From the NCBI RefSeq assembly GCF_900109365.1, contig NZ_FNZR01000016.1:1-34518 (forward strand): a stretch of 34,518 bases of DNA, written 5' to 3'. Below the pieces are notes generated by a model. That model was not told where the DNA came from. It made no database searches and saw nothing but the letters and a program-made list of their open reading frames with translations. The position numbers and the translations under genes were made by a program. Within the stretch, counting starts at the first letter, position 1; every line of letters begins with the position of its first letter. Shown here piece by piece: positions 6,084 through 31,496 of the stretch. The stretch is from Parapedobacter koreensis (GTDB lineage: Bacteria > Bacteroidota > Bacteroidia > Sphingobacteriales > Sphingobacteriaceae).

Positions 6084-6105
6084 TGAACTATTAAGCATAA
6101 ACACG

Positions 6106-7586: not shown

Positions 7587-9752
7587 ATGTATAGAAGAGA
7601 TTTCATCAAAGCAGCGACTGTATTGGGGAGTTCCCTTGCGGTTGCACGTTCAGGCTTACTGGCCCACGGCATGGACAATATGCAAGCTCCATGGTTTGAC
7701 AAAGCAATGCGATGGGCACAGCTGGCCTATGTTGAGCGAGATCCCGGCCATTACGACCCGGATTTCTGGTTAGATTATTTCAAGCGCATCCACGCAGACG
7801 GGGCGTTATTGAGCGCTGGTGGGGTAGTGGCATTTTATCCAACGAACATTCCGCTGCATTATCGCAGTGCATGGCTCAACGATACAGATCCGCTTGGGTA
7901 TTTAATGGCGGGCTGCCGCAAAATGGGGATGTCCGTGATCCTGCGGACAGACCCGCATGCGGTACGTGACAATGTATATCAAGCGCATCCGGATTGGATT
8001 GCAGTGACCGCTGAGGGCGAAAAAAGAAGGCATTGGGCAAATCCTGAGTTGTGGGTCACCTGTGCGTTGGGGCCCTATAATTTTGAATTCATGACTCAAG
8101 TGAATCAAGAAATTATGGAGCGGTATGAACCCGAAGCAATCTTTTCCAACCGTTGGGCGGGGCATGGTATATGCTATTGCGAGCATTGCCAGAAAAACTT
8201 TAGGGCGTTTTCGGGGTTGGATTTGCCCAGGACAACGGATAGGCTGGACACCACATACCGCAAGTACAATGAATGGCGTATCGCCCGCTTGCAGGAGCTC
8301 TGGTTTCTGTGGGATGAAGAGATCCGGAAGCAAAAACAGACAGCCCGATACATCCCCAATGGATTCCCGGACAAGTTGATTACCGGAAAGCATTCTGATT
8401 TCTTTTTTGCCGACCAACAAGCGAGAAGCGGGGTGATCCCTCCTTGGGCCAATGGAAGGCACGCCAAAGAATTGCGTGCAACGATGGGCATGAAGCCCCA
8501 AGTGGGCATATTCAGCGTGGGTGTAGAAGAACGGTACCGGTGGAAAGATTCTGTACAAAGCAATGCCGAGATACGGATATGGGTTTCGGAGGGGGTGGCC
8601 AACGGCTTGCGTCCCTGTTTTGTGAAGTTTGGTGGCGTGATTTTCGATAAACGTTGGATGAGTACCGTGGAAAACCTATACAACACTTACCACCGCAACG
8701 AGCGGTACCTGCGCAACACGGCACCCCTGGCTGACGTGGCCATCGTCTATTCGGAACAGACCGACCGGAATTATGGCGGGCAACCGTGGCAACAGAATCT
8801 CCGTGATCATGCCAGTGGAATGTACCACGCGCTTATCGAAGCCCGTATACCATTCGAGATGGTCAGCGATCGCTTGATGGATGATGAGCACCTGAAGCAT
8901 TTTAAAGTGCTTATCCTCCCCAATGTTGCCGCTTTGTCTGATGCGCAGTGCGAACAATTGATAAAATACGTAGAAAATGGCGGAAACATCGTGGGCACGT
9001 TCGAGACGTCGTTGTATGACGCAGAAGGGAATCAATTGGCTGATTTCGGATTGTCGCGGCTATTTGGAGTTTCTTACGACAAAGCCGTAGAGGGGCCGCT
9101 GCAAAATAGCTATCTGACGATTAGGAAAGGTTCGGAAGGTTACCACCCTATTTTGGAAGGATTGGAGGATGCCCCGCGCATCATCAACGGTACACACCGG
9201 ATAAAAGTGACCCCACATCACAATGACTTCCCAAGTCCGATTACGTTGGTACCCACATACCCCGATTTGCCGATGGAGGATGTTTTTCCACGAGTACCCG
9301 AAACCGATATCCGGGAAGTATACCTCAACGTGCATGGCAAGGGTAAGGTCGCGTATATACCATGGGATATCGACCGTGCGTTTTGGCAACTCATGCATAG
9401 CGATCACGGTCGGCTTATCGGTAATATCGTGAAATGGGCAATTGGCGAAGATAAACTTATCGAATCGACGGGGGCAGGGGTATTGGATATTACCGTTTGG
9501 CAGCAAGATCGGTCCATGACCGTACACCTGGTCAACTTATCGAATCCCATGATGATGAAAGGGCCTTTCAGGGAGATTTTGCCCATTACGAACCAGCAGG
9601 TGCAGGTGAAACTCCCGGATGCACGTACCGTGTCAAACGTAAGGCTTTTGGTGAGCCAGCAATCGGCATCGTATACACAGGACGGAAACCGGCTTAATAT
9701 CGTGGTGGATCAGATAGCTGACCATGAAATCATTGGTATAGACCTGTCGTGA
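7587..9752 (+). CDS. Secreted GH42-like / GHL6 putative glycoside hydrolase, Tat signal (paralogue 1)
   Basis: A 721-residue exported protein starting YRRDFIKAA, a twin-arginine signal (R3-R4) of the kind common in this phylum. The N-terminal half (about residues 30-380) looks like a TIM-barrel of the hypothetical glycosyl hydrolase 6 / GH42-like group (GGVVAFYPT, AIFSNRWAGHGICYC). The second half has a beta-galactosidase trimerisation-like, glutamine-amidotransferase-fold domain (about 385-490, with VAIVYSEQT and LIKYVENGGNIVGTFET). Cys159, Cys196, Cys198 and Cys201 match the C-x(n)-C-x-C-x2-C zinc site known from GH42 beta-galactosidases. I could not assign the catalytic acids: the Asn-Glu pair typical of clan GH-A is not evident. 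It is more divergent than the two paralogues downstream. A role in cutting the SusCD ligand in the periplasm is inferred. Confidence 0.8.
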   Translation: MYRRDFIKAATVLGSSLAVARSGLLAHGMDNMQAPWFDKAMRWAQLAYVERDPGHYDPDFWLDYFKRIHADGALLSAGGVVAFYPTNIPLHYRSAWLNDTDPLGYLMAGCRKMGMSVILRTDPHAVRDNVYQAHPDWIAVTAEGEKRRHWANPELWVTCALGPYNFEFMTQVNQEIMERYEPEAIFSNRWAGHGICYCEHCQKNFRAFSGLDLPRTTDRLDTTYRKYNEWRIARLQELWFLWDEEIRKQKQTARYIPNGFPDKLITGKHSDFFFADQQARSGVIPPWANGRHAKELRATMGMKPQVGIFSVGVEERYRWKDSVQSNAEIRIWVSEGVANGLRPCFVKFGGVIFDKRWMSTVENLYNTYHRNERYLRNTAPLADVAIVYSEQTDRNYGGQPWQQNLRDHASGMYHALIEARIPFEMVSDRLMDDEHLKHFKVLILPNVAALSDAQCEQLIKYVENGGNIVGTFETSLYDAEGNQLADFGLSRLFGVSYDKAVEGPLQNSYLTIRKGSEGYHPILEGLEDAPRIINGTHRIKVTPHHNDFPSPITLVPTYPDLPMEDVFPRVPETDIREVYLNVHGKGKVAYIPWDIDRAFWQLMHSDHGRLIGNIVKWAIGEDKLIESTGAGVLDITVWQQDRSMTVHLVNLSNPMMMKGPFREILPITNQQVQVKLPDARTVSNVRLLVSQQSASYTQDGNRLNIVVDQIADHEIIGIDLS

Positions 9753-9789: not shown

Positions 9790-11922
9790 ATGAAGACAAT
9801 ACCTAACATATTGATTTTACTTGGCGTTTCGTTATCCGGTGCGGTGCTTGGACAAACAGCGAAAACCGATTTCGACTATACTGCGATACAACCGGGTTCC
9901 TACGACGGGACTTGGTGGAACCGCACACCGATAAGGCTGATCCAGACGAATTTCCCAGCCGTTTATGCGAGCATGGCCGTAGACGATTATGTGGATGCGC
10001 TGGTCGATGCGTCTGCTAACACCGTGTTGTTTAACACCGGGGGGATTGTTGCAAATTACCAGACAAAACTGGATTTTCAATACCGGAATCCTCACATGGG
10101 CGAACGGGATTTCGTTGGGGAGCTTATTGAGCACGTGCACGAAAAAGATATCAAGTACATCGCTCGGTTTGATTTCAGTAAATTACATCCGAGTATTGCC
10201 GATAAACACCCGGAATGGCTATATGTGGGCACGTATGGTCAAAACCAAACGTTCAACGGTTTGGTTTCGACATGTATTAATGGGGCCTATTATCAGGAGC
10301 ATTCGCTTGACATACTGAAAGAGGCGATTGAAACCTACCCACTGGACGGTATCTTTTTTAACATGATGGGATACACGGGGGCTACCTATTCGGGCGAATA
10401 CCATGGAATATGTCAATGCGGGAGTTGCAAGCGGAGGTTTAAGGAATCGACCGGATTGGACTTGCCTACATCCAATGATGATTCCCATATCAGCGAATAC
10501 AGGCGGTTTCAACAGGAAACATCCCGGGAATTGTATACGAAGGTGACCGATTTCATCAAAGCTACCAACCCGAATTTGATTATTTACAACTACAATGATG
10601 TGGGTACTTCGTGGATTGCCTCCGAATCCGGAGGTACGCCGCTACGGAACGGGCCGGAGTACATTTACAATGCCACCAACAACGTAAAACAAGTCCTGGG
10701 ATCGTACAAAGACGTATCCCCAGTCAATTTGACCATGGGTTTCTTGGCAATAGGGTACAGGAATATCATGAACAACCCCAATCTGTTGCGGGGATGGATG
10801 CTTGAAAACATGCTGCATGGCGCTCCCCTCGGATTTGTCGTTGTAGGTACCTTGAATCATTATGAAGATCGGGTATTCTTACCGAAAGTGAAGGAATTGT
10901 ACACCTTTCACAAAACCCATGAGCCGTTGTTTACCAATGTCCAATCCGTCAGTAACATTGCGTTGATCCAAGATCGTGGAGGAGAAGATGCACGCGGGAT
11001 GATACGGTTAGCGTCGGAGGAGCACCTCATGTATGACATCATCAATCCATCTCAAATCGGGGGCACTCGACTCCCCCGTCAATTGGAAGACTACGAGCTG
11101 GTGATTTTAAATAACGTGGCGATGACGGACAAAGAGCTCGCGACTGCAGTGTCGGATTATGTGAAAAAGGGAGGCAAATTATTGGTGCTGGGTAGCGCCG
11201 TAGCCAATGGCATCGAAAAAGGAACGGGCACATTTAGCTTGGAGACTTTGGGCGTTGCATCTGTCGTTGATGTGTTTCCCAAGGCTCAAGCCACGTATCT
11301 GAAAGTTTCTCCAACTGATCAACAGCTATTGAGCCAAAGTAAGGAATTTAGCTTAATGATGATGAATGCCAGGTTTCTCCAATGTGAGCTAACGCCGGGC
11401 GCCAAGGGCTATTTAAGGCTCCTCCCAACGAATTTATATGGCCCCGCTGAAGTAACCTGGTACGAAGAAAGCCAAATTACGCAATACCCCGGCGTGGTAT
11501 ACAACGATTCTGGAGAAGGAAAGACGGTGTTTATCCCCTGGGATATCGGAGCTGAATATGAACAAAGGGGTAATTATGCGCACCGCTCGCTTTTATTGGG
11601 CACGATTAAAAACCTGCTGTCAGTAGACAACACCGTTGAAACCGATATGTCTCCGACCATTGAGTTGACCCGGCTCGCCAATAGAAATGGGCAGTTTGAA
11701 TGGATGGGCATGATAAATCATTCTGGATTTCTGGGAAATTCAGTTAGGGAACCGATAACTATCACCAATACAAGCCTAAAATTCAAGCCTTTGAAACCCG
11801 TAAAGCAAGTTCGTCTGGTCAACGCAGAGACGGATGTAGCTTTCAAAGAAGTCGATGGTTGGATCGAATGCACAATCCCCCGGATAGCTGATTTTGAAAT
11901 GTTGTTATGTCTTTACGAGTAA
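9790..11922 (+). CDS. Secreted GH42-like / GHL6 putative glycoside hydrolase, Sec signal (paralogue 2)
   Basis: A 710-residue protein with an ordinary Sec signal peptide (hydrophobic core I7-G21, likely cut before Q22) instead of the Tat signal of paralogue 1. The mature start has the block PGSYDGTWWNRTPIRLIQTN, shared almost unchanged with paralogue 3. The barrel half contains GGIVANYQT, RFDFSK and LDGIFFNMMGY. A four-cysteine pattern (Cys162, Cys208, Cys210, Cys213) matches the GH42 zinc site. A trimerisation-like domain (about 395-480, with ALIQDRGGEDARGMIRL and VSDYVKKGGKLLVLGS) and C-terminal beta domains follow. No catalytic acids were assigned. The gene sits 37 bases after paralogue 1 and 32 bases before the permease. 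Substrate specificity is unknown; membership of the GHL6/GH42-like group is the confident part. Confidence 0.8.
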   Translation: MKTIPNILILLGVSLSGAVLGQTAKTDFDYTAIQPGSYDGTWWNRTPIRLIQTNFPAVYASMAVDDYVDALVDASANTVLFNTGGIVANYQTKLDFQYRNPHMGERDFVGELIEHVHEKDIKYIARFDFSKLHPSIADKHPEWLYVGTYGQNQTFNGLVSTCINGAYYQEHSLDILKEAIETYPLDGIFFNMMGYTGATYSGEYHGICQCGSCKRRFKESTGLDLPTSNDDSHISEYRRFQQETSRELYTKVTDFIKATNPNLIIYNYNDVGTSWIASESGGTPLRNGPEYIYNATNNVKQVLGSYKDVSPVNLTMGFLAIGYRNIMNNPNLLRGWMLENMLHGAPLGFVVVGTLNHYEDRVFLPKVKELYTFHKTHEPLFTNVQSVSNIALIQDRGGEDARGMIRLASEEHLMYDIINPSQIGGTRLPRQLEDYELVILNNVAMTDKELATAVSDYVKKGGKLLVLGSAVANGIEKGTGTFSLETLGVASVVDVFPKAQATYLKVSPTDQQLLSQSKEFSLMMMNARFLQCELTPGAKGYLRLLPTNLYGPAEVTWYEESQITQYPGVVYNDSGEGKTVFIPWDIGAEYEQRGNYAHRSLLLGTIKNLLSVDNTVETDMSPTIELTRLANRNGQFEWMGMINHSGFLGNSVREPITITNTSLKFKPLKPVKQVRLVNAETDVAFKEVDGWIECTIPRIADFEMLLCLYE

Positions 11923-11954
11923 TAAATTTTTTAATAGCACTAAAAACCATTTGA

Positions 11955-13703
11955 ATGAACTGGACCCAAGTTACCGACCCTTTTGATAATATTGCGCTGT
12001 CCGCACTCGTGGCGGTAATACCAATAGTCTTTCTATTCTGGGCACTCATCATCAAGAAGATGAAAGGCTATATAGCGAGCCTTTTTGCTACGCTGATTGC
12101 CCTGTTGATTGCTGTAAGTATCTACGGTATGCCCATCAAGCTGGCATTGCTTTCTACTGGACACGGTGCCCTTTACGGCTTGTTTCCGATTTGCTGGATT
12201 GTGGTGACGGCCGTTTTTCTCTTCAACATCACGGTAAAGAGCGGCCAGTTTGAGGTCATCAAACACTTTATGGCTACCATTACCGACGATAGGCGGTTAC
12301 AGGCACTGATTATTGCATTCTCCTTCGGTTCGTTTCTGGAAGGAACCGCGGGGTTTGGGGCACCCGTAGCGATCACGGCTGCAATGCTCGTCGGATTGGG
12401 ATTCAACCCGTTGTATGCAGCGGGGATCTGCCTCATCGCTAATACGGCCCCTGTTGCCTTTGGTGCCATAGGAACACCAATCCTAGTGGCTTCCCAGGTT
12501 TCGGGAATCCCTGAAATGGGCATTTCACAGATGGTGGGCCGTACATTGCCCATCCTATCGCTACTGGTGCCCCTATATCTGGTGGTATTGATGGCGGGAT
12601 TCAGGAAAGCAATGGACGTTTTGCCAGCGGTGTTGGTCACAGGTGGGGCCTTTGCCGGGCTGCAATGGTTTTCGTCCAATTTCTTGGGGCCCAGCCTGCC
12701 CGATATAATTTCGGGGCTCGGCTCCATTATCTGCTTGATTATCTTCCTTAAATTCTGGAAACCCAAGCAGGTTTGGCGGTTTAAGGACGAACCCCAGGCG
12801 GCTGCACAGACGAGTTATTCCTACACTGCCGGTCAGATCTTCCGGGCATGGTCACCTTTTATCGTCCTGACCATCATGATGATTGCATGGGGTATCCAGC
12901 CCATTAAAGCAGCGCTCAACCATTTGGGTATGGTCCAGTTTGAGATTCCGGGTTTGCACAATACCATACAAGCTGCAGACGGAACGGCATTGCCGCATGT
13001 TTTCAATTTGAACTACCTATCTGCCGCAGGTACGGCCATCCTGATCTCGGCATTGATTTCCATGCCATTGATTGGCATAGGATTCAGGCAAGGGGCAAAG
13101 ATTTTCGGAGCGACGCTAAGCCAGTTGAAGTTTCCCATCGTCACGGTAAGTTCGGTATTGGGATTTGCCTATGTCGTAAACGATTCGGGTATGACCATCA
13201 GCATGGCCAATGTATTAGCGGCTACCGGTGGGCTTTTCCCGTTTTTTGCACCGGTATTGGGTTGGCTCGGCGTGTTCATCACCGGTTCCGACACGTCAGC
13301 CAATGCGCTGTTTGGTAGGTTGCAGGCCGCAACAGCGACTTCTATTGGCGTGGATCCCGTTGTCACGGTAGCCGCTAATGTCTCGGGTGGTGTTGTGGGC
13401 AAGATGATTTCCCCCCAATCCATTGCAGTGGCCGCAGGTGCGGGCGGATTAATCGGACAGGAATCCGATCTCTTCCGTTTTACGGTGAAACACAGTTTCA
13501 TCATGCTATTTTTTATCTGTGTCATCGTGTTTGTACAAGCTTACCTCTTTGCTTGGCTAATTCCAGCATATGGGACATTAGGCACGCAGAGCACTATAGC
13601 CACCCCTGATAGAAGCGTGGGGTATATCTACCTGCTTGTGTTGGCCCTTCTGCTGGCGGCCATAGCGATTGGTATACGGTTATCATCAAAGAAGCACATC
13701 TAA
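11955..13703 (+). CDS. LldP-family lactate/glycolate permease, complete copy
   Basis: A 582-residue, highly hydrophobic inner-membrane permease of the L-lactate permease family, close to the usual length of about 550-580. Characteristic segments are FGSFLEGTAGFGAPVAITAAML, split here as FGSFLEGTAGFG plus APVAITAAML, IANTAPVAFGAIGTPI, and in the C-terminal half [14 protein letters not shown] and [16 protein letters not shown]. Characterised members carry L- and D-lactate and glycolate with protons. By context this one may carry a small hydroxyacid such as glycerate released by the neighbouring hydrolases. It is placed between two secreted hydrolase paralogues and 14 bases before a sugar isomerase, so it is part of the catabolic operon. 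Its codon usage is more AT-rich and matches its neighbours, unlike the two partial copies at the window edges. Confidence 0.95.
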   Translation: MNWTQVTDPFDNIALSALVAVIPIVFLFWALIIKKMKGYIASLFATLIALLIAVSIYGMPIKLALLSTGHGALYGLFPICWIVVTAVFLFNITVKSGQFEVIKHFMATITDDRRLQALIIAFSFGSFLEGTAGFGAPVAITAAMLVGLGFNPLYAAGICLIANTAPVAFGAIGTPILVASQVSGIPEMGISQMVGRTLPILSLLVPLYLVVLMAGFRKAMDVLPAVLVTGGAFAGLQWFSSNFLGPSLPDIISGLGSIICLIIFLKFWKPKQVWRFKDEPQAAAQTSYSYTAGQIFRAWSPFIVLTIMMIAWGIQPIKAALNHLGMVQFEIPGLHNTIQAADGTALPHVFNLNYLSAAGTAILISALISMPLIGIGFRQGAKIFGATLSQLKFPIVTVSSVLGFAYVVNDSGMTISMANVLAATGGLFPFFAPVLGWLGVFITGSDTSANALFGRLQAATATSIGVDPVVTVAANVSGGVVGKMISPQSIAVAAGAGGLIGQESDLFRFTVKHSFIMLFFICVIVFVQAYLFAWLIPAYGTLGTQSTIATPDRSVGYIYLLVLALLLAAIAIGIRLSSKKHI

Positions 13704-13717
13704 ATAAACATATATAA

Positions 13718-14629
13718 ATGAACGAATCAATGTATCGATACATGAAGGTAGGCCTCGTACACTTCATGGCATTCCCCACTACGATGAGGGGAAACGGACC
13801 CGTACTGGAAACGATCCGCGCTTTGGCAACGGACGATTATTTCAATGCGATTGAAATCACCACCATTGCAGACAGGGAAGAACGCCAACAAGCGAAACGC
13901 ATCTTGGAGACCTCGCACATGACAATTGCCTATGGCGCCCAGCCCCGGCTCCTAACAGCTGGATTAAACATCAACGACCTTGATGAGGAAAGAAGAAAAG
14001 AAGCCTTGACGGTTTTATTTGATGGGGTTGATGAAGCTTATGAGATGGGTGCAAGTGGGTTTGCTTTTCTAAGCGGTAAGTATGACGAGGAAAATAAGGA
14101 GCAGGCGTTTGGAAGGTTGGTGGAATCAACCAAGGAAATCTGCCGTTATGCAAAAAGTAAAGGAGATTTAAAGGTTGTATTGGAGATCTTTGATTATGAT
14201 GTAGACAAAAAAAGCCTCATTGGTCCCGCTTCCTTGGCACTGCGCTATGTAGAGGAAGTGCGCAAGGAATGCGATAATTTCGGATTGATGGTAGATTTAA
14301 GCCACATTCCACTTTTGCATGAGACAATCGAAGAGGCGATATTGCCGATCAAGGACTACATCGTGCATGCACATATCGGTAATTGTGTGGTGAAGGACCC
14401 GGCGTTGGAAGGGTACGGCGACCAACACCCTCGATTTGGATTTCCCAATAGTGAAAACGATGTTGATGAAGTGGCTGATTATCTAACTATTCTTTTAGAC
14501 ATCGGATTTCTAAACAAAGAGCATCCACCCATCGTGAGTTTCGAAATAAAACCCTATGGAGATGAAGATCCTTATGTGGTCATTGCAAATGCAAAACGAA
14601 CGCTGAACGAAGCTTGGGCAAGGCTTTAA
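13718..14629 (+). CDS. Sugar phosphate isomerase/epimerase-like TIM-barrel protein (AP endonuclease 2 superfamily)
   Basis: A 303-residue cytoplasmic protein with no signal peptide, of the xylose-isomerase-like TIM-barrel family (PF01261 type). The four metal ligands expected at the barrel mouth can be placed: Glu156 (LEIFDYD), Asp193 (MVDLSHIPL), His219 (VHAHIGNC) and Glu276 (SFEIKP). The family includes hydroxypyruvate isomerase, tagatose/fructose epimerases and inosose isomerases, and sequence alone does not decide between them. Hydroxypyruvate isomerase would fit the reductases and glycerate kinase downstream, but this is inference. Start codons at 13730 and 13742 are also possible; the last gives MKVGLVHFMAFP, a natural barrel start. 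It lies 14 bases after the permease. Confidence 0.85.
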   Translation: MNESMYRYMKVGLVHFMAFPTTMRGNGPVLETIRALATDDYFNAIEITTIADREERQQAKRILETSHMTIAYGAQPRLLTAGLNINDLDEERRKEALTVLFDGVDEAYEMGASGFAFLSGKYDEENKEQAFGRLVESTKEICRYAKSKGDLKVVLEIFDYDVDKKSLIGPASLALRYVEEVRKECDNFGLMVDLSHIPLLHETIEEAILPIKDYIVHAHIGNCVVKDPALEGYGDQHPRFGFPNSENDVDEVADYLTILLDIGFLNKEHPPIVSFEIKPYGDEDPYVVIANAKRTLNEAWARL

Positions 14630-14669
14630 TTGACAGGTATTGCTACAAAACGGCAACTATAGACACGAT

Positions 14670-16862
14670 ATGCATTATAGTTCAAGAAAAGATTTTATCA
14701 AAAAGACGCTCTTCGGTGCAGCAGCGCTCTCCATAGGTAGTACAGTGAATAATGGAGTATCCGTGTTTCGTAACGAAAGAAGCATCGATGATGTCGATTT
14801 CGATGCGATAGACCCGGGCAGCTACGATAACACCTGGTGGAATAGGGCTCCCGTTAGGCTAATACAAACGAATCTCCGAGAAATCGATGCAATGATGGAT
14901 GTAGAAGCGTATGTGCAATCTATCCTTGACGGCTCTGCCAATGTTGTACTGTTAAATGTGGGCGGCATCGTTGCCAACTATCCAACCCAACTACCCTATC
15001 ATTATCGTAATCCGTTCATGAAGGGGGATCTAGTTGGAACCTTAGTTGATCGGCTTCATCAGCACGACGTCAAAGTGATTGGTCGTTTTGACTTTAGTAA
15101 GCTTAATGAAGTATTAGCCGAAAAAAAGCCGGAATGGCTATATGTCGGTACTCATGGTAAAAATGTCAACTATAACGGGCAGGTACACACTTGTATCAAC
15201 GGCGGTTATCAACAGGAATATTTGTTCCATATCCTGAAAGAGGCGATCATCCAATACCCGTTAGACGGTATTTTCTTTAACATGATAGGTTATACTACGA
15301 CTGACTACAATGATGAATCCCACGGTATCTGCCAATGTGAAAATTGCAAAAACAGATTCTTTAATGCTACTGGGGCACAGTTACCCGTAGTAGAAGATAT
15401 TGATGACCCAGTATTCCGTGAATACAATGCATTTAAGTCCGCAACTTCAGATGAATTGTTTAATCGGATTGGCAAATTTATTAAAGAGTTAAATCCAAAT
15501 CTTGTTGTCAATACCTACACGGATGCGGGAGTGGACATGATTCGCATGGAATCCAGTTCGCATATTAGAAACCAGCATGAGTGGAATTACTTTTCAACGG
15601 ACCACGTAAAGCGTGTGTTAGGCTCATACGATGACCGGGCTCCAAGCAATTTGTTGCAATATTTCCTCGCGTTGGGCTATAGACATGTAGCCGCTGCACC
15701 CAGCCTTTCAAAAGTTTGGGTGTTGCAGAATATGCTTCAGGGAGGGGCACTTGATGTATATGTAATCGGTACCTTGGTCAATCAAGCGGATCGCGCCTTC
15801 ATAGCGATAACCAACGATCTTTATGCGTTTCACAAAAAGCACGAAAAGTTGTTTACGAACTTAGCGCCTCGAAGCAAAGTGGCGTTGGTGCGTGGCAATG
15901 GAGAGGAGTACAAAGGAATGATCAGATTGCTATCCGAGGAGCATATTTTGTTTGATATTATCGAACCTTCGGCCATTGGCAGCGACCACATTCCGCGTAA
16001 TATTGACAGTTATGATGCACTTATTTTAGGCGATGTCAGTATGATGGGCGATGAGCTTATCGGACATATCGATAGTTACGTGCAGCAAGGAGGGAAGGTT
16101 CTGGCTACTGGTTTTACCGCTACGCGGGACAAAACAGGCAATCCGATGGCTAATATCCGGTTAAAATCATTGGGAGTGAAACCCGGCTACGAATTAGTTC
16201 CACGGGCTAAATCCACCTATCTTAGTATCAGCACAACTGATAAGGACGTATTGGGCGATTCGGCTTTTCGGGATATCGATTTGATGATGGTATATGCTGA
16301 CTTCCTGAAATGTGTGCCCACCGATCAAGCAAAAGGTTATTTCAGGCTTGTCCCATCCACGATGTTCGGACCACCTGAAAAATGTTATTTCATGGCGGAA
16401 GAAATCACCGATATTCCAGGGATGATCGTCAATGAATATGGTAAAGGACACACCGTCTTTGTTCCTTGGCCAATTGGTGCTCAATACAATTTTAAAGGAC
16501 ACCATGCTCATCGCGCACTTTTTGCCACAGTACTTAACGATGTGTTGAAAATTGAAAAAACGATTGAAACAGATGCATCGCCACTCATTGAAATCTCTCA
16601 TATGGTTAATCGTAAAGGAGCGTATGAGTGGATTGGCTTAATCAACCATGCTGGTCAGCTGGGTGCTACATTTCGCGATCCCGTATCGATACATCAAATA
16701 ACATTACGGTTTAAACCAGTTGATAACATGAATATAAAAGCGATAAGGATGTTGCGAGCCGAACGCCACATTGACTTTAAGGAAGTTGACGGTTGGGTGG
16801 AATGTGAGGTGCCAAGGCTTGATGATTTCGAGGTGGTACTTTGCCTTTATGACGGACATTAA
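14670..16862 (+). CDS. Secreted GH42-like / GHL6 putative glycoside hydrolase, Tat-like signal (paralogue 3)
   Basis: A 730-residue protein closely related to paralogue 2: both share the block PGSYD-TWWNR-P-RLIQTN, RFDFSKL, PEWLYVGT and LDGIFFNM. The N-terminus SRKDFIKKTLFGAAAL looks like a Tat signal in which the second arginine is replaced by lysine (R6-K7). The four-cysteine GH42-type zinc pattern is Cys175, Cys221, Cys223 and Cys226. A trimerisation-like domain follows (about 410-500, with VALVRGNGEEYKGMIRLLSEEH and VQQGGKVLATG, quoted in parts). The ATG at 14670 was preferred over an upstream TTG at 14640 because it starts directly before the Tat motif. It is separated from paralogue 2 by the permease and isomerase genes. 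Catalytic residues and substrate are unassigned. Confidence 0.8.
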   Translation: MHYSSRKDFIKKTLFGAAALSIGSTVNNGVSVFRNERSIDDVDFDAIDPGSYDNTWWNRAPVRLIQTNLREIDAMMDVEAYVQSILDGSANVVLLNVGGIVANYPTQLPYHYRNPFMKGDLVGTLVDRLHQHDVKVIGRFDFSKLNEVLAEKKPEWLYVGTHGKNVNYNGQVHTCINGGYQQEYLFHILKEAIIQYPLDGIFFNMIGYTTTDYNDESHGICQCENCKNRFFNATGAQLPVVEDIDDPVFREYNAFKSATSDELFNRIGKFIKELNPNLVVNTYTDAGVDMIRMESSSHIRNQHEWNYFSTDHVKRVLGSYDDRAPSNLLQYFLALGYRHVAAAPSLSKVWVLQNMLQGGALDVYVIGTLVNQADRAFIAITNDLYAFHKKHEKLFTNLAPRSKVALVRGNGEEYKGMIRLLSEEHILFDIIEPSAIGSDHIPRNIDSYDALILGDVSMMGDELIGHIDSYVQQGGKVLATGFTATRDKTGNPMANIRLKSLGVKPGYELVPRAKSTYLSISTTDKDVLGDSAFRDIDLMMVYADFLKCVPTDQAKGYFRLVPSTMFGPPEKCYFMAEEITDIPGMIVNEYGKGHTVFVPWPIGAQYNFKGHHAHRALFATVLNDVLKIEKTIETDASPLIEISHMVNRKGAYEWIGLINHAGQLGATFRDPVSIHQITLRFKPVDNMNIKAIRMLRAERHIDFKEVDGWVECEVPRLDDFEVVLCLYDGH

Positions 16863-16880
16863 TAATTAATTGTAGCAAAT

Positions 16881-19079
16881 ATGAAAGACATGTTTTTTCT
16901 TGTCATGATGATGTGTGTGCTCATTGGGAAAGGGCAGGCACCCGGTGGCCTATCCATCGTGTACGACTCCGATAGCCCCAGGGAGGTATTTGGTGCGATA
17001 CTGTTGCGTCAAGCATATGCCAAACAAACAACGTTCGTTGATAAGAAAAGCAAACTCGCTACGCATCCTACGATAACATTTATGATAGACTCCATCCATT
17101 TGGCTCCTGAAGCTTATGCCGTGAAAAAAAATGGAGATACCATTGCAGTAAAAGGAGGTGACGCAACAGGCGTGATGTATGGTGCCACGGATCTCGCTGA
17201 TAGGATTAGTTTGGGGGAGAACATCTCCGCTTTTGAAGGGGCGCCTTATCTCAAAAAAAGAGGAATAAAATTTAATATTCCATTGGACGCGCGTACACCA
17301 AGCTACGATGACCGCGGGGACGCCGCCCAACACGCGATTTCGACGGTGTGGGAGTTCGATTTTTGGCAAAATTTTATTGAAAATATGGCCCGGTATCGAT
17401 ACAATGTACTTTCACTATGGATACCCCATCCTTTTCCCTCTATGGTAAAAATACCGGAGTATCCCGATGTGGCCTTAGACAACGTCTGCGTATATACCGG
17501 CAAAATAAGGCCTGATACGAGAAGAGAGTGGGACGATCCGCGAGATGACATCCAAAACCCAGCGAATCTCCGTATAATCAAACAGCTAAGCATTGATGAG
17601 AAGATAGCGTTCTGGAAGAAGGTATTCAGCTATGCAGCCGATTTAGGCATTGAAATCCATCTATACACGTGGAATGTTTTTGTCTATGGAGCCGAAGGCA
17701 AGCATGGAATTACCTGGGAACAGGACAATCCCATTACCATCGATTATGTCCGTCAAAGCGTTAAGCAGTTCTTGCTCACCTATCCGAATGTCAAAGCAAT
17801 CGGGCTCACCGCCGGAGAACATATCGATAGAGATATCGCTCCTGAATATGGTATTGAAAACTGGCTTTACATGACGTATGGGAAGGGCATTATGGACGCG
17901 AAGGCACAGATGCCCTCGCTTGATGTACGGATCATCTTCCGGCAACACCATACAAAGATGGAATATATCCGTAAGGCATTCGAAGGCTATGATGGTCCAT
18001 TCGAGACGGAGTTTAAATATTCAAGATCGAGGATGTTCAGCAGCGTAGTGCCTCCTTTTTTCGACAAAATATACCGAGCAGATGTTGAGCAAAACCACAT
18101 GCTATGTTGGATGAATGTACGCAACGATGATTGTTATGTACTCCGTTGGGGAGATCCGGTATATGCGGCAGATTACATTAAAAACATACCCTATGACGTT
18201 ACCGCTGGTTTTATTATGGGGGGCGATGGATACGTATATGGAAAAGATTTTGCCAGTAAGCATCCAGACGCTGTGGGGCAATATGAGATGGATAAGCATT
18301 GGTATTATTTTATGATATGGGGTAGAGCATCCTATGACCCTGATCTTCCAGCCAACTTCTACATTAATCAGCTTAGCCTACGGTTCCCGGAAATTGATGC
18401 ATCGGCTTTATATCACACGTGGCGAAATACGGCTGCAATCAACTCATGGGTAAATAAACTCCATTTTGGCCCCAATGATTATGAGTTTTGCTTCGAAGGA
18501 TCGTTCCGTGGACATCCTGAGACACGCGAACAGCAATTTGTCAGCATAAATGACGCGATAGCAATGGACGTAATGCCCGAGCAAAGTGTAATTTCAATTG
18601 CTGAATATGCAAACGATCCAAGCCTCAAGGGAATTACGCCTTTTGACGTAGCCGATTCTATCGATGCGGCAGCAGATCAGTTGCTAAATGGGATGAATAC
18701 TATCCCGGCTGGAGGCAGTACGGCACTTTCGGAAACGCTGGGTGATTTCCATGCCTGGGCGCGATTGGGACGTTATTATGCTGCTAAATTTCGAGGAGCC
18801 ACATGGACTGCTTTATTACGGAAGACCGGCAAGGAGGAATACCGGGGAAAGGCCATCGCGTCGCTTAGGCAAGCCCTTAATGAATGGACACAATACGCAG
18901 CAATTGCAGGTGGGAAATATAAGCCCCAGACACTTGCCCGGCAAGGGAGATTGGATTATTATGCCGCGATAAAAGAGGTGGAAAACGATATTGAAATTGC
19001 GAAGCAGGCAAAGCAAGGCGAACCAGTAGCCCTTCGTAAAAGTAACAAACTTTGGGAAATCAAATCGTTATATTACTGA
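16881..19079 (+). CDS. Secreted GH67-like (alpha-glucuronidase-like) putative glycoside hydrolase
   Basis: A 732-residue exported protein with a Sec signal peptide (likely cut near A20-P21). Residues about 75-110 carry the pattern AYAVKKNGDTIAVKGGDATG followed by VMYGATDLADRI. This is typical of the GH20/GH67 N-terminal alpha/beta domain that precedes alpha-glucuronidase and hexosaminidase barrels. The barrel seems to begin at RGIKFNIPLDAR (about residue 129). Candidate acidic catalytic residues are Glu313 (LTAGEHID) and Glu377 (ETEFKYSR), but I cannot align them reliably with characterised GH67 or GH115 enzymes. The C-terminal 150 residues look helical. It is 18 bases after paralogue 3, so probably co-transcribed. 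A role in removing an acidic sugar is a guess from the N-terminal domain, and the family number is uncertain. Confidence 0.65.
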   Translation: MKDMFFLVMMMCVLIGKGQAPGGLSIVYDSDSPREVFGAILLRQAYAKQTTFVDKKSKLATHPTITFMIDSIHLAPEAYAVKKNGDTIAVKGGDATGVMYGATDLADRISLGENISAFEGAPYLKKRGIKFNIPLDARTPSYDDRGDAAQHAISTVWEFDFWQNFIENMARYRYNVLSLWIPHPFPSMVKIPEYPDVALDNVCVYTGKIRPDTRREWDDPRDDIQNPANLRIIKQLSIDEKIAFWKKVFSYAADLGIEIHLYTWNVFVYGAEGKHGITWEQDNPITIDYVRQSVKQFLLTYPNVKAIGLTAGEHIDRDIAPEYGIENWLYMTYGKGIMDAKAQMPSLDVRIIFRQHHTKMEYIRKAFEGYDGPFETEFKYSRSRMFSSVVPPFFDKIYRADVEQNHMLCWMNVRNDDCYVLRWGDPVYAADYIKNIPYDVTAGFIMGGDGYVYGKDFASKHPDAVGQYEMDKHWYYFMIWGRASYDPDLPANFYINQLSLRFPEIDASALYHTWRNTAAINSWVNKLHFGPNDYEFCFEGSFRGHPETREQQFVSINDAIAMDVMPEQSVISIAEYANDPSLKGITPFDVADSIDAAADQLLNGMNTIPAGGSTALSETLGDFHAWARLGRYYAAKFRGATWTALLRKTGKEEYRGKAIASLRQALNEWTQYAAIAGGKYKPQTLARQGRLDYYAAIKEVENDIEIAKQAKQGEPVALRKSNKLWEIKSLYY

Positions 19080-19161
19080 TATAAGTTTATGAGGATATAA
19101 TTGATATTTATACTTAGCTTAGCCATTTTCTTAATAATTGGATTTTTAAACACTTGATTTG

Positions 19162-20121
19162 ATGAAAATAGTAATTCTGGACGGATACACACTGAATCCC
19201 GGAGATTTGACCTGGGAAGGCTTGGAGAAACACGGCGAACTGAAGGTATACGATCGAACCGCTAAGGACGAAATTGAGGAGCGGGCCAAGGGCGCGGAAG
19301 TCGTGTTGACAAATAAAGTGCCTTTAAGTGAAGAAGTGCTGGATAAATTGCCTGATTTGAAGTATATCGGTGTATTGGCTACGGGCTATAATATTGTAGA
19401 TACCGACCATGCAAAAAAGAAAAGCATTGTCGTAACCAATGTACCGGGGTACGGTACCACATCGGTCGTCCAATTGACATTCGCGCTGTTGCTCGAACTT
19501 TGCCACCGTGTGCAGCGACACAGTGATGCCGTGGCCGAGGGTAAATGGTCGCGTTCACCCGATTTTTGTTTTTGGGATTACCCATTGATAGAACTTTTGG
19601 GCAAGACCATGGGTATTATTGGCTTTGGAGATATCGGTCAGAAAGTAGCAGACATCGCCACGGCTTTTGGAATGAACATCCTGGGATACAGCCGCACGGA
19701 AACCGACCAATCCCATCGGAAGAATTTTCAATGGGTAAGCTTGGATGAATTGTTTCAGCAATCCGATGTGGTCAGTATTCATTGTCCGCTTACCCCGCAA
19801 ACGTCCGGATTAATTAACCACATTACGCTGGCAAAGATGAAAAAGACAGCTTTTCTGCTTAATACTTCGAGGGGGCCCATTGTCAATGAAGCCGATCTTG
19901 CAACTGCATTAAACGATGGCAAGATAGCTGGTGCAGGACTAGATGTGCTCGCTACGGAACCTCCACCTTCGGATAATCCCTTGTTTGCTGCCAAAAACTG
20001 CCTGATCACCCCTCATATTGCGTGGGCGACCAAGGAAGCCAGGTCGCGATTGATGGAAATAGTTGTCAGCAACTTTGTCGCTTATTTGGGCGGAAATCCT
20101 GTGAATGTGGTCAATAAATGA
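19162..20121 (+). CDS. D-2-hydroxyacid dehydrogenase (hydroxypyruvate/glyoxylate reductase-like)
   Basis: A 319-residue cytoplasmic NAD(P)-dependent dehydrogenase. The Rossmann motif is GFGDIGQ in the middle of the protein. The catalytic triad is visible: Arg237 (NTSRGP), Glu266 (ATEPP) and His285 (PHIAWAT). The sequence GYSRT after the second strand, with Ser-Arg where NAD-specific enzymes have an Asp, suggests NADPH preference. Family members reduce hydroxypyruvate or glyoxylate to D-glycerate or glycolate, or oxidise 2-hydroxyacids. Just upstream is an 82-base AT-rich gap, the longest inside this catabolic run, which might hold a secondary promoter, although I could not identify convincing elements. 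ATG 19162 was chosen over TTG 19159. The two following genes give the glycerate context. Confidence 0.9.
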   Translation: MKIVILDGYTLNPGDLTWEGLEKHGELKVYDRTAKDEIEERAKGAEVVLTNKVPLSEEVLDKLPDLKYIGVLATGYNIVDTDHAKKKSIVVTNVPGYGTTSVVQLTFALLLELCHRVQRHSDAVAEGKWSRSPDFCFWDYPLIELLGKTMGIIGFGDIGQKVADIATAFGMNILGYSRTETDQSHRKNFQWVSLDELFQQSDVVSIHCPLTPQTSGLINHITLAKMKKTAFLLNTSRGPIVNEADLATALNDGKIAGAGLDVLATEPPPSDNPLFAAKNCLITPHIAWATKEARSRLMEIVVSNFVAYLGGNPVNVVNK

Positions 20122-20131
20122 ACGTAAAACT

Positions 20132-21016
20132 ATGAATGACAAAAAGATAGGATTTATTGGGTTGGGTATCATGGGCAAACCGATGGCCGCAAACTTGATA
20201 AAAGCGGGATATGAACTATTGGTGCCGCGCAGCAGCAAAGCATCCGGCGAATTGGAAAAGCTGGGCGCAGCATTGGTTGATGGCTATAGCACGATTGCGC
20301 AACGGAGTGAAGTGTTGGTGACCATGCTTCCCGACTCACCACAGGTGGAGGAGGTCGTATATGGTGCTGGGGGGCTACTCTCAGGCCTTAAAGAAGGATC
20401 GCTTTTTATCGATATGTCTACAATAACTCCCGCGATATCCATCAGGTTACATGAAGAGCTAACAGAAAGGGGCATCGAGGCCTTGGATGCACCGGTGTCC
20501 GGGGGGCAGGTGGGGGCAGAGACGGCTACGCTTTCCATCATGGTAGGTGGAAGCGAACGTGCATTCGAGCGAGCAATACCTATTTTTGAAGCCATGGGCA
20601 AGAATATTGTGCACATCGGCAAAGCGGGGGCCGGCCAAACGGCAAAGGCATGTAACCAATTGATCGTTGGGATGACGATACAGGCTATTGCGGAGGCATT
20701 TACATTAGCGAAAAAAGCCGGTGTCAACCAAGCGAAGCTACGCGAAGTGCTTTTGGGTGGATTTGCCCAAAGCCGTATTTTAGATTTACACGGCAATCGC
20801 ATCGTAAATCGCAATTTTGAACCTGGGTTTAGACTTAAATTGCACCGAAAAGACATGAACATCGTTTTACAAACGGGTAAGGAACTGGCTACACCGCTAT
20901 ATGGGGCCTCACAGGTAGCAGCTCATATGGACGCAGCAATTGCTGCGGGCGACGGTGATTTGGATCACAGTGCGCTTGCATTGTTGATGGAACGGCTTGC
21001 TGGAATAACGGATTGA
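20132..21016 (+). CDS. garR: 3-hydroxyisobutyrate dehydrogenase family reductase, probably tartronate semialdehyde reductase
   Basis: A 294-residue beta-hydroxyacid dehydrogenase, the usual length for tartronate semialdehyde (2-hydroxy-3-oxopropionate) reductase. Visible hallmarks are the N-terminal dinucleotide motif GFIGLGIMGKPMA, the substrate-binding signature DAPVSGGQVGAETATLSIMV, and the catalytic lysine Lys172 in GAGQTAKACNQ. The reaction would be NAD(P)H-dependent reduction of tartronate semialdehyde to D-glycerate. The frame can be read from ATG 20105, but this would overlap the previous gene and add nine residues before the Rossmann strand, so ATG 20132 is preferred. It is 10 bases after the 2-hydroxyacid dehydrogenase and 11 bases before glycerate kinase, which supports the assignment over 3-hydroxyisobutyrate dehydrogenase proper. 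Confidence 0.87.
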   Translation: MNDKKIGFIGLGIMGKPMAANLIKAGYELLVPRSSKASGELEKLGAALVDGYSTIAQRSEVLVTMLPDSPQVEEVVYGAGGLLSGLKEGSLFIDMSTITPAISIRLHEELTERGIEALDAPVSGGQVGAETATLSIMVGGSERAFERAIPIFEAMGKNIVHIGKAGAGQTAKACNQLIVGMTIQAIAEAFTLAKKAGVNQAKLREVLLGGFAQSRILDLHGNRIVNRNFEPGFRLKLHRKDMNIVLQTGKELATPLYGASQVAAHMDAAIAAGDGDLDHSALALLMERLAGITD

Positions 21017-21027
21017 TAAGGTAAGTT

Positions 21028-22167
21028 ATGCATATTCTGATCGCACCCAATGCGTTTAAACATGCCCTTGATGCTCCTGAAGCTGCAGCAAGTATTCAAA
21101 CGGGTCTGTTGGCAAGCAAACTCCCCTGTACGTGCGAATGTTTCCCGATTGGCGATGGTGGGAATGGAACTTGCAAGTTGATTATCGATAAATTGCACGG
21201 CGAGGTGATTAACGCGTGGGTTACCGATCCGCTGGGCAGGTCAATTGAGGCAAGCTATGGGTTAGTCCACGACGGCCAAACAGCAGTGATAGAAATGGCC
21301 GATGCTTCAGGGTTGCATCTATTAAAGCGGGAGGAACTTGCGCCATTACGGGCAAATTCTTATGGGACAGGGCAACTCATCAAGGCGGCATTAGACAAAG
21401 GAACAACACAAATCATCCTTGGTATGGGCGGCTCCGCCACGGTTGATGGCGGCAGTGGCATCTTGGCGGCCCTGGGTGTCCGATTCTTAGACAAACAGGG
21501 AAGCGAGCTTACCGAACTTCCAGCTGGGTTGGTGCATCTGCATGCCATAGACACCTCTGGATTGGACAAACGGCTGGCATCCTGTACAATCGATATCCTC
21601 TGTGATGTGGCAAACCCATTGCTAGGGCAGGATGGCGCTGCATATGTTTTTGGGCCGCAAAAGGGCGCTTCGGCCACAGAGGTCGCACAATTGGATGCCA
21701 TTTTAGCCCATTATGCACAGGTTATATTGGACAAAACAGGACGTGATACCACGGCGATTGCCTCCGGTGGAGTAGCGGGTGGGGCAAGCGCTGGATTGTA
21801 TGGTGTGTTAGGTGCCCGCTTGGTTAATGGCATCGATTACTTTTTGCAGCTTACGCATTTCAGCGAATCACTGAAAAAGAGCCATCTAGTGATCACCGGC
21901 GAGGGGAGCCTTGATGCCCAAACGTTATATGGAAAAGGCCCGTATGGTGTCGCTGTACAGGCAAAAGCGTCGAAAATACCGGTTATCGGCCTTGCCGGAA
22001 GTGTTCCCATGAATCAGGCAACAAGATTGGAAGATTACTTCGATATGGTATTGGCAATAGGGAATGGGCCGATGCCACTGGAAAAGGCGCTCCAAACAAC
22101 GGCTACAAACCTTGAACGGACGGCGCAGCAAATTGGAAATCTCCTTGCAGGGTTTGAAACTCGATAA
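21028..22167 (+). CDS. garK: Glycerate 2-kinase (GarK/GlxK family)
   Basis: A 379-residue kinase of the type I/GarK glycerate kinase family (PF02595 type), full length. It converts D-glycerate and ATP to 2-phosphoglycerate, which enters lower glycolysis. Hallmarks are the start HILIAPNAFKHALDAPEAA, IEMADASGL, GMGGSATVDGGSG, and ITGEGSLDAQT near the C-terminus. The usual acidic residue in the early DGG(E/D)GT motif is asparagine here (GDGGNGT, about residue 50). It is the last gene of module 1 and meets the second sigma gene tail to tail with only six bases between stop codons. It anchors the prediction that module 1 ends in glycerate metabolism. Confidence 0.93.
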   Translation: MHILIAPNAFKHALDAPEAAASIQTGLLASKLPCTCECFPIGDGGNGTCKLIIDKLHGEVINAWVTDPLGRSIEASYGLVHDGQTAVIEMADASGLHLLKREELAPLRANSYGTGQLIKAALDKGTTQIILGMGGSATVDGGSGILAALGVRFLDKQGSELTELPAGLVHLHAIDTSGLDKRLASCTIDILCDVANPLLGQDGAAYVFGPQKGASATEVAQLDAILAHYAQVILDKTGRDTTAIASGGVAGGASAGLYGVLGARLVNGIDYFLQLTHFSESLKKSHLVITGEGSLDAQTLYGKGPYGVAVQAKASKIPVIGLAGSVPMNQATRLEDYFDMVLAIGNGPMPLEKALQTTATNLERTAQQIGNLLAGFETR

Positions 22168-22805: not shown

Positions 22806-22823
22806 ATTTTTTTTAAAAAAAAT
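22806..22823. other. Perfect A/T palindrome in the divergent sigma-FecR control region
   Basis: One A, eight Ts, eight As and one T form an 18-base perfect palindrome. It lies in the 141-base region between the divergent sigma (ATG 22758) and FecR (ATG 22900) genes. It may bend or destabilise DNA, bind a regulator, or simply reflect AT-rich promoter DNA. It overlaps an in-frame ATG at 22822, which argues mildly against that codon as the FecR start. Confidence 0.35.
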
Positions 22824-22899
22824 GAAAAAAGACTATGTGTATCGACCACGCTGCGCTACATATCAATACAAAGCGGTCTTCGAAAGCTTTGCAACAATT

Positions 22900-24081
22900 A
22901 TGAATCAAGCGGAATTTAATACACTTATTAAAAAATATCAGTCAGGCGAGCTGGATCCTAAGCACAAAGCTATTGTCGATCAGTGGCTTGAAACCCTCGG
23001 TACCAACAATGAAGAGGTATGGACCCCAGCAGAGTTGGAAACGTTGCATAAGCGAATAATGGAAGATATAGACGTACGGATGCCACAAAGACGCAACGCT
23101 CCACTTATACCTATATGGCGTCGTTGGCTGCCTTACGCGGCGGCAATCTTACTTGTTGGCTTTGGCGGTGTATATTATTTTCAAACCATTATTCCGTCGG
23201 CTAAAAATCAAACCGCTGATAAAGATGGATCAACTACAGAAAGCGCCCAGCATATCCTTCCCGGAGGAAATAAGGCGACGCTCACATTAGCCGATGGCCG
23301 CATTGTCGAATTAAGCAGCGATCATGCAGGTATTGTTGTGGGAGATAAACTTTCCTATGATGATGGGACGGCATTATTGGATGAGAAGCCAGCAAGCGGC
23401 CAAGATGTTGGCTCAAAGCCCGACGACTTGGTACTAACCACCCCGAAGGGGGGACAATATCAATTGACCCTGCCCGATGGGAGTCGTGTGTGGCTCAATG
23501 CGGCAAGCACCTTGAAATACCCGATCAAGTTTACAGGTAGTCAGCGGGAAGTTGAATTGATTGGCGAAGCCTATTTCGAAATCGTAAAACGAACTAATCA
23601 GTCAGGGTTAGTCCCTTTTGTTGTACGGACAGCAGATCAGGAAGTTGAAGTATTGGGCACACAGTTTAACGTTGCTGCATATGAAGATGAGGCGGAAACA
23701 AGGACAACACTTGTAGAAGGATCCGTTAAAGTTCGTCAGTCCGCTAATGGCGTCGCAGGAAAGGGAACAGCGTTAAAATTGATTCCCGGTGAAGAATCTG
23801 TATTAACACCATTGGGTATACACGCGCGTAAGGCTAATTTGACAGCTTCGATCGCTTGGAAATCCGGAATATTCGCTTTTGAAGATATTCCTTTCGACCA
23901 AATGATGAAGCAAATAGCCCGATGGTATGACATCGAAGTGGTATACGAGGGGAAAGTCCCGAAAGAACAATTCATAGGAAAGATGGGCCGCGATGTCAAT
24001 TTACAAGTATTGATAAACTTCTTTCGGGACTCAGGTATCAACCTGCGTGTCAAAGGCCATATAATCTATGTTGAAGAATAG
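22900..24081 (+). CDS. FecR-type anti-sigma factor / transmembrane sensor, module 2
   Basis: A 393-residue single-pass regulator matching the module 1 FecR in layout. The cytoplasmic N-terminus starts MNQAEFNTLIKKYQSGELD, one membrane helix runs from W76 to about residue 97, and then come the LPGGNKATLTLADGR motif, a FecR domain with LNAASTLKYPIKF and VLGTQFNVAAYED, and a C-terminal DUF4974-like domain (ARWYDIEVVYEGKVP). The frame extends upstream to ATG 22822, giving 26 extra residues of unusual composition. I chose 22900 because it matches the family's normal start and leaves room for a divergent promoter. The partner sigma is encoded on the opposite strand. The expected role is to keep that sigma inactive until the downstream SusC signals. 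Confidence 0.9.
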   Translation: MNQAEFNTLIKKYQSGELDPKHKAIVDQWLETLGTNNEEVWTPAELETLHKRIMEDIDVRMPQRRNAPLIPIWRRWLPYAAAILLVGFGGVYYFQTIIPSAKNQTADKDGSTTESAQHILPGGNKATLTLADGRIVELSSDHAGIVVGDKLSYDDGTALLDEKPASGQDVGSKPDDLVLTTPKGGQYQLTLPDGSRVWLNAASTLKYPIKFTGSQREVELIGEAYFEIVKRTNQSGLVPFVVRTADQEVEVLGTQFNVAAYEDEAETRTTLVEGSVKVRQSANGVAGKGTALKLIPGEESVLTPLGIHARKANLTASIAWKSGIFAFEDIPFDQMMKQIARWYDIEVVYEGKVPKEQFIGKMGRDVNLQVLINFFRDSGINLRVKGHIIYVEE

Positions 24082-31486: not shown

Positions 31487-31496
31487 CAAAATATAA

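Follow-up and report, generated by a model that had tools for sequence, protein, structure and literature searches.

Introduction

Polysaccharide utilisation loci (PULs) are usually read as sugar-harvesting systems, with the substrate guessed from the glycoside hydrolases (GHs) that they encode, and permeases of the LldP/GlcA family transport glycolate and lactate. Here, we describe a locus of Parapedobacter koreensis in which the two meet: an operon with the transport proteins SusC and SusD (SusCD), exported-looking GH-like proteins, an LldP-family permease and genes for the metabolism of small hydroxyacids. It lies on contig C24, the whole of which (34,518 bp) is the window analysed here, in an assembly of 5.55 Mb and 27 contigs that is 99.99% complete, with gaps (G, C and L numbers label genomes, contigs of this assembly and loci, respectively). 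On balance, we favour the view that this operon exemplifies a recurring type of SusCD utilisation operon whose harvested product is a small hydroxyacid.

Sus-type PULs under FecI/FecR control have the layout seen here, with exported-looking enzymes and a transporter of the inner membrane downstream of FecI-FecR-SusC-SusD; the present operon differs in that this transporter is an LldP-family permease and in carrying catabolic genes for two- and three-carbon (C2/C3) acids. With the glyoxylate glycerate pathway (Gcl-Hyi-GarR-GlyK) it shares a GarR-like reductase, the glycerate kinase GlyK, a D-2-hydroxyacid dehydrogenase (2HADH) and a permease of the LldP/GlcA family, but the genome has no glyoxylate carboligase above cut-off, the TIM barrel of the operon is not recognisably Hyi and the genes sit in a SusCD operon. 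The third point of comparison is the malate cycle for glycolate: the glyoxylate route through malate synthase, malic enzyme and pyruvate dehydrogenase was shown in C. necator, growth by the malate synthase route depended on CO2 fixation, and isocitrate lyase is the usual partner of malate synthase (PMC7486775). Sister loci and relatives of our operon resemble this cycle in that a malate-synthase homologue is paired with LldP and/or LutABC, and in G940 with malic enzyme as well; they differ in their tie to SusCD and exported-looking GH-like proteins, and in a divergent malate synthase that falls under the TIGR01344 cut-off. A literature search that covered few subscription journals found, among the titles listed, no paper joining lactate permease, SusD and glycoside hydrolase in this sense.

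An LldP permease embedded in a SusCD operon

A single gene run occupies positions 647–22167 on the forward strand, with no gap above 177 bp; between SusC and GlyK the intergenic distances range from −23 to +79 bp. It opens with a FecI-type extracytoplasmic function (ECF) sigma factor (647–1237; PF08281, PF04542) and a FecR anti-sigma factor (1323–2474; PF04773, PF16344), followed by the adjacent SusC and SusD homologues expected of a PUL, a TonB-dependent transporter (2652–6083; PF07715, PF13715, PF07660) and a lipoprotein (6061–7563; PF07980, PF14322). Next come GHL6a, a GHL6 protein with a GH42M-like part (7587–9752; PF14871, E 7e-15; PF08532) of a kind that in relatives stands, in conserved order, directly before LldP, and GHL6b (9790–11922; PF14871, E 2e-24), which is 48% identical to GHL6c. 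The LldP/LctP-family hydroxyacid permease (11955–13703; PF02652, E 8e-180) occupies the middle of the operon, and exported-looking GHL6 (PF14871) and GH138-like proteins flank it on both sides. It is followed by an AP_endonuc_2 (xylose-isomerase-like) TIM barrel, hereafter AP2 (13718–14629; PF01261, E 1.6e-15), GHL6c (14640–16862; PF14871, E 1e-24), the GH138-like protein (16881–19079), 2HADH (19159–20121; PF02826, E 4e-63; PF00389), a GarR-like tartronate semialdehyde reductase (20105–21016) and GlyK (21028–22167; PF02595, E 2e-129). An earlier sequence-only reading, for which the coordinates 9790–22167 were given, had named the same set (SusCD/FecIR, LldP, TIM barrel, 2HADH, GarR-like reductase and GlyK); profile matches, the common strand and the tight spacing bear it out, and SusC and SusD (2652–7563) lie outside that interval yet within the same gene run. 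Judged by eye, the N-termini of the GHL6, GH138-like and GH92-like proteins (the latter encoded by a second PUL downstream) appear to be export signals, and AP2, 2HADH, GarR and GlyK appear to lack them. Scans for sigma-70-type promoters, a class that does not cover Bacteroidota promoters (27 found versus 30.7 in shuffles), and for terminators (11 versus 15.2) gave numbers at or under chance.

The gene order recurs in relatives of two families

LldP was found in 26 of the 201 genomes of the window's family (at ≥57% identity in five besides its own), in 29 of 400 genomes of the order sample and in 4 of 395 of the phylum sample (E 1e-100); in the family to which G661 belongs, 50 genomes out of 222 have it (E 1e-150). 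Fifty-four LldP loci were examined and 52 used, G974 and G970 being dropped because the simple open reading frame (ORF) caller had lost the lldP frame; for the family of G661, 42 of the 66 listed matches were read, G661 and G780 among them, with a preference for the top matches, and the sample is not random. Some gene runs of relatives end at the edge of the examined stretch. In genomes of high GC content the caller undercounts and selects antisense frames, the latter seen, and corrected, in G940. Families in relatives were named by BLAST against an hmmscan-annotated set, in which LutA and several clusters were first named by eye and later checked on single members.

In these 52 gene runs, LldP is accompanied by SusC/SusD in 28, by an acid gene (2HADH, GlyK, GarR, Lut or malate synthase) in 31 and by both in 17. 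These counts, together with the LldP, malate-synthase homologue or LutABC of the sister PULs described below, lend partial support to the notion of an acid-releasing PUL type put forward in the sequence-only reading, without proving it. GHL6 occurs in 17 runs, GH92 in 11, GH138-like proteins in 10, AP2 and a GMC oxidoreductase in 9 each, 2HADH in 20, GlyK in 11, GarR in 7 and BNR_4 in 3. GHL6 stands immediately upstream of LldP in 16 of the 52 loci and 2HADH at most two genes downstream in 19. The order GHL6-LldP-(AP2)-2HADH-(GlyK), recurring in relatives of two families, is not due to chance.

Several locus types can be told apart. Type A, to which the window operon belongs, reads FecIR-SusCD-GHL6-LldP-AP2-2HADH-(GHL6)-(GlyK), and has a variant without SusCD, Gluconate_2-dh3-GMC-GHL6-LldP-2HADH-GlyK (G995, G983). 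In type B, FecIR-SusCD-GH92-GH92-LldP is followed by a 545 aa protein with a weak GHL10 match under cut-off; two such loci (G989b and G856b) additionally hold GlyK and a GarR homologue at 36–38%. Type C combines GH138-like proteins, LldP, LutABC and malate synthase: SusD-GH138-like-LldP-LutABC-malate synthase in G1011, the same components with LldP last in G988, and GH138-like-LldP-LutABC-malate synthase, with no SusCD seen, in G022. Type D, found in G940, reads SusC-SusD-propeller-DUF386-2HADH-alcohol dehydrogenase (ADH)-aldehyde dehydrogenase (ALDH)-MFS-LldP-malate synthase-malic enzyme and resembles a locus on contig C10 of the present genome. Type E is SusCD-BNR_4-LldP, in three genomes (G073, G052, G063). 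Finally, G934 and G936 (L195 5222–14089, L201 5030–13936) have FecI-FecR-SusC-SusD-LldP with no enzyme between.

Two side observations concern these loci. A GMC oxidoreductase and a Gluconate_2-dh3 partner lie shortly before GHL6-LldP (L171 12922–14631, L204 5930–6508), which suggests an oxidation step outside the cytoplasm. In genomes labelled g21 (L107, L109, L111), LutABC-malate synthase lies beside a secreted-looking esterase, with a weak polyhydroxybutyrate (PHB)-depolymerase match in G123, and LldP is found elsewhere, beside an amidohydrolase.

On an LldP tree of 51 rows, in which several long branches are flagged and single placements are unsure, the PUL types are clustered, with 15 label changes against a least possible number of 5 and a shuffled mean of 29.3; PUL type switches repeatedly on the tree. 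In both G1002 and G996, the LldPs of the type A and type B operons cluster with each other, and the closest group of the window LldP includes those of C16 and G068. This grouping across PUL types is explained by exchange or gene conversion and fits one acid common to several of them, without proving so. A contig scan with two of the genome's own LldPs also returned five loci titled as other phyla, at 46–58% identity, which were not used further.

Sister loci of the same genome

The genome has five LldP matches, one on C16, one on C22 and three on C24, and each lies within a SusCD locus or at the edge of one. At its end, C16 carries FecI-FecR-SusC-SusD-880 aa GH138-like protein-malate-synthase homologue-DUF386-LldP; the DUF386 (YhcH family) protein between malate synthase and LldP (L010 14417–15031) has a lipoprotein-like N-terminus. 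C22 carries LldP(3')-GarR-GlyK-FecI-FecR-SusC-SusD-three GH138-like proteins-malate-synthase homologue, and C7 carries SusC-SusD-513 aa weakly GHL6-like protein-LutA-LutB-LutC-malate-synthase homologue. The C10 locus, FecR-SusC-SusD-enolase superfamily-propeller-2HADH-ADH-ALDH-MFS-LeuB-type dehydrogenase-TonB-dependent protein-enolase superfamily-malate-synthase homologue, shares part of its gene content with G940 (L020 1–18900, with two enolase-superfamily proteins). SusCD followed by a GHL-like protein, with LutABC and the malate-synthase homologue behind it (L018 15539–19417 and L019 300–6495), makes up a PUL with a hydroxyacid oxidation module. All four malate-synthase homologues of the genome, one of them with LutABC, and both of its glycerate kinases are at SusCD loci.

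Identities of the acid-metabolism and glycoside hydrolase-like proteins

The permease belongs to the LctP/LldP family (TIGR00795, 580 bits; cut-off 341) and scores under the equivalog cut-offs of PRK10420 (630/918 bits) and PRK09695 (589/1121), by which a function as L-lactate/glycolate permease is not excluded. GlyK is a glycerate kinase by TIGR00045 (410 bits; cut-off 168), although this model and PF02595 leave phosphorylation at position 2 versus 3 unsettled. The reductase passes as tartronate semialdehyde reductase by TIGR01505 only (350.8 bits; cut-off 340.75), with PRK11559 and PRK15059 under cut-off; of the seven LldP loci with GarR, six have it at only 36–38% identity and G068 at 72%. 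The route through hydroxypyruvate, tartronate semialdehyde and glycerate that the sequence-only reading had drawn is weakened by the rarity of GarR (7 of 52 loci), which makes tartronate semialdehyde no constant part of it, and by the TIM barrel. AP2 (13718–14629) was considered as hydroxypyruvate isomerase (Hyi): no Hyi model is among its NCBIfam hits, the closest model being IolO at 40.7 bits (cut-off 300), and its best PDB chain is Art22. In line with that reading, no glyoxylate carboligase exceeds the cut-off; genome-wide the best match reaches 313 bits against 711, and the best match in the genome to an HpcH/HpaI (GarL-type) aldolase reaches 22.9 bits against 25. Tartronate semialdehyde is therefore without a standard source. 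Glucarate/galactarate dehydratase and KDG-type enzymes were likewise listed as missing by the sequence-only reading; the dehydratase was absent from the window, the rest of the genome not having been searched for either.

For the C2 acids, the malate-synthase homologues score over the PF01274 cut-off in four sister loci; one aligns to 3cux over 8–549 (E 7e-47), and the positions that we take to be the catalytic R, E, D and D of malate synthase look kept.

The carbohydrate-active candidates are the GHL6 and GH138-like proteins of the first PUL, with putative activity, and the GH92-like proteins of the second. The relatives of GHL6 in the PDB are remote: a C-terminal match to alpha-L-fucosidase 6tvk (E 6e-6) and a short one to beta-galactosidase 3tts (E 0.001) amid unrelated hits. 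The protein at 16881–19079 matches BPa0997 (6hze; E 3e-11), a GH138 alpha-galacturonidase (NCBIfam NF049878). It shares with BPa0997 the N-terminal part; its match to NF049878 is partial (66/1300 bits, residues 68–195) and far below the cut-off, and its specificity is putative. Four large C16/C22 proteins with no Pfam hit are homologous to one another and to the window protein (659–773 aligned positions). Among them, the 730 aa paralogue of C22 matches BPa0997 at E 6e-24 over residues 102–329, including the TIM-barrel part, the 880 aa protein at 5e-6 and an 872 aa protein only at 0.2.

A predicted acid-harvesting route and its alternatives

On the reading that we favour, SusCD would carry a glycan or glycoside over the outer membrane, the exported GHL6 and GH138-like proteins (GH92-like in the second PUL) would break it down and release a small 2-hydroxy (or 2-oxo) acid that is still outside the cytoplasm, and LldP would take this acid into the cell. 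In the C3 branch, that of the window operon, D-glycerate would be obtained as such, from hydroxypyruvate via 2HADH or from tartronate semialdehyde via GarR, and would be converted to phosphoglycerate by GlyK. In the C2 branch, that of the sister PULs and relatives, glycolate, glyoxylate or malate would pass through LutABC and malate synthase; the sequence-only reading, which had proposed a non-sugar acid as a main product, missed this branch. Since 2HADH (20 of 52) and GlyK (11), but not GarR (7), are the C3 genes that recur, the acid is more plausibly hydroxypyruvate or glycerate than tartronate semialdehyde.

The presence of C2/C3-acid genes together with a permease in several PULs suggests that the harvest of the cell includes an acid as well as sugar. 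If such recurring PULs do serve this end, acid-bearing glycans and glycosides are substrates still unrecognised, the GHL6 and GH138-like proteins acquire a role, and an LldP within a few genes of SusD provides a genomic marker by which more can be found. A broader generalisation, which we offer tentatively and hold to be rather less than an even bet, is that a class of SusCD systems in at least two families of the Bacteroidota mines glycans or glycosides for a small hydroxyacid, with an exchangeable LldP serving the GHL6, GH92, GH138-like and BNR_4 types and the acid passing to GlyK (C3) or to LutABC-malate synthase (C2). Were this so, the enzyme-free FecI-FecR-SusC-SusD-LldP loci of G934 and G936 would be SusCD systems whose target is an acid or a small molecule that bears one.

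A number of points weigh against an acid-harvesting operon. The specificity and direction of LldP and the activities of the enzymes are predicted, the specificities of the GHL6 and GH138-like proteins are only putative, and the AlphaFold model of the three window GHL6 paralogues is poor, with a predicted local distance difference test (pLDDT) of 42.5. The C2 and C3 routes do not form a single pathway, nor do we know of one substrate that yields both. The malate-synthase homologue reaches 235 bits on the malate synthase A model TIGR01344 (cut-off 594.5) and forms a divergent group. SusC/D is missing from 24 of the 52 LldP runs, an acid gene from 21 and both from 10. Of the eight other genomes of the genus, seven are without a close LldP (the exception, G068, has it at 74%) and all eight without a malate-synthase match. 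Moreover, several relatives have GlyK and 2HADH as a chromosomal pair with no SusCD; among 20 GlyK loci read in the window's family (out of 57 matches in other genomes, and not counting G068 and G188), SusC/D was seen by eye close to three (G057, G028, G087), a rough background. The linkage of kinase and reductases to SusCD, on which the sequence-only reading had staked itself, is accordingly mixed, with the genus and the GlyK contexts against it and, for it, the SusCD setting of both own glycerate kinases and the presence of GlyK in the LldP operon of several genomes of G661's family.

Alternatively, the acid might be a piece of the sugar rather than a substituent or aglycone: exported oxidoreductases would oxidise the glycan or sugar, GHL6-type proteins would split it and C2/C3 acid fragments would enter by LldP. 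The GMC oxidoreductase of 9 runs, with its Gluconate_2-dh3 partner in 8 loci, beside GHL6-LldP, would suit such a scheme, as would the DUF7133-cytochrome c protein immediately upstream of LldP-2HADH in three genomes labelled g14 (G188, G415, G360) and a GSDH-like protein near LldP in G123; however, the window operon has no exported oxidoreductase and 43 of the 52 runs have no GMC protein, and we regard this explanation as unlikely. We think it more doubtful still that a larger sugar acid (aldonate or ketoaldonate) enters by LldP, with AP2 as epimerase, 2HADH as 2-ketoaldonate reductase, and GlyK and GarR for the last steps. AP2 is nearest to keto-sugar epimerase models (IolO, psicose epimerase), DUF386 adjoins LldP in C16 and occurs in the G940 operon, and in G068 the genes that precede a GarR-GlyK-2HADH module encode an HpcH/HpaI aldolase, a GntP permease and a UxuA-like protein. 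This last is the usual sugar-acid arrangement, and it employs GntP, whereas the window operon has LldP in place of the aldolase, GntP and the UxuA-like protein; the genome has no HpcH/HpaI aldolase above cut-off, and the LutABC-malate synthase and malic enzyme beside LldP elsewhere point to C2/C3 acids instead.

LldP as an exporter or a general lactate permease for overflow, for example of L-lactate from deoxysugar breakdown, with a housekeeping kinase module carried along, would account for GlyK-2HADH pairs without SusCD in relatives and for the remote alpha-L-fucosidase match of GHL6. It is hard to square with acid-consuming enzymes next to LldP (2HADH within two genes downstream in 19 of 52 loci, LutABC and malate synthase elsewhere) and with the location of both glycerate kinases of the genome at SusCD loci, and strikes us as very improbable.

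The second PUL and the contig ends

A second PUL begins 654 bp beyond the first operon, likewise on the forward strand, and comprises FecR (22822–24081; PF04773), SusC (24257–27712; PF07715), SusD (27734–29182; PF07980), two GH92-like genes and the start of an lldP truncated by the contig end (33824–34518; PF02652, E 3e-80, profile 1–216). A further LldP, of which the 3' part is present, is truncated at the contig start (1–498, forward strand; PF02652 profile 411–520). The first 95 bases of C24 are identical to those at the start of C22, and the end of C22 resembles the start of C10, with 74 identical bases in a row. The assembly breaks fall in near-identical malate-synthase and lldP repeats; therefore, the acid-linked PULs of C24, C22 and C10 may form one recently duplicated array, deduced from these repeats rather than assembled.

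The GH92-like proteins (29195–31486; PF07971, E 1.6e-145; and 31497–33776; PF07971) match GH92 chains in the PDB with E down to 8e-100 for the former, and their best PDB matches leave the N-terminal part uncovered. They match GH92 in general, and a substrate such as mannosylglycerate or digeneaside is neither supported nor excluded by them; PMC6298971 only names digeneaside among further substrates. The two genes are 92.3% identical in DNA over 2163 bp, and the tandem pair (29195–33776) is a recent duplication.

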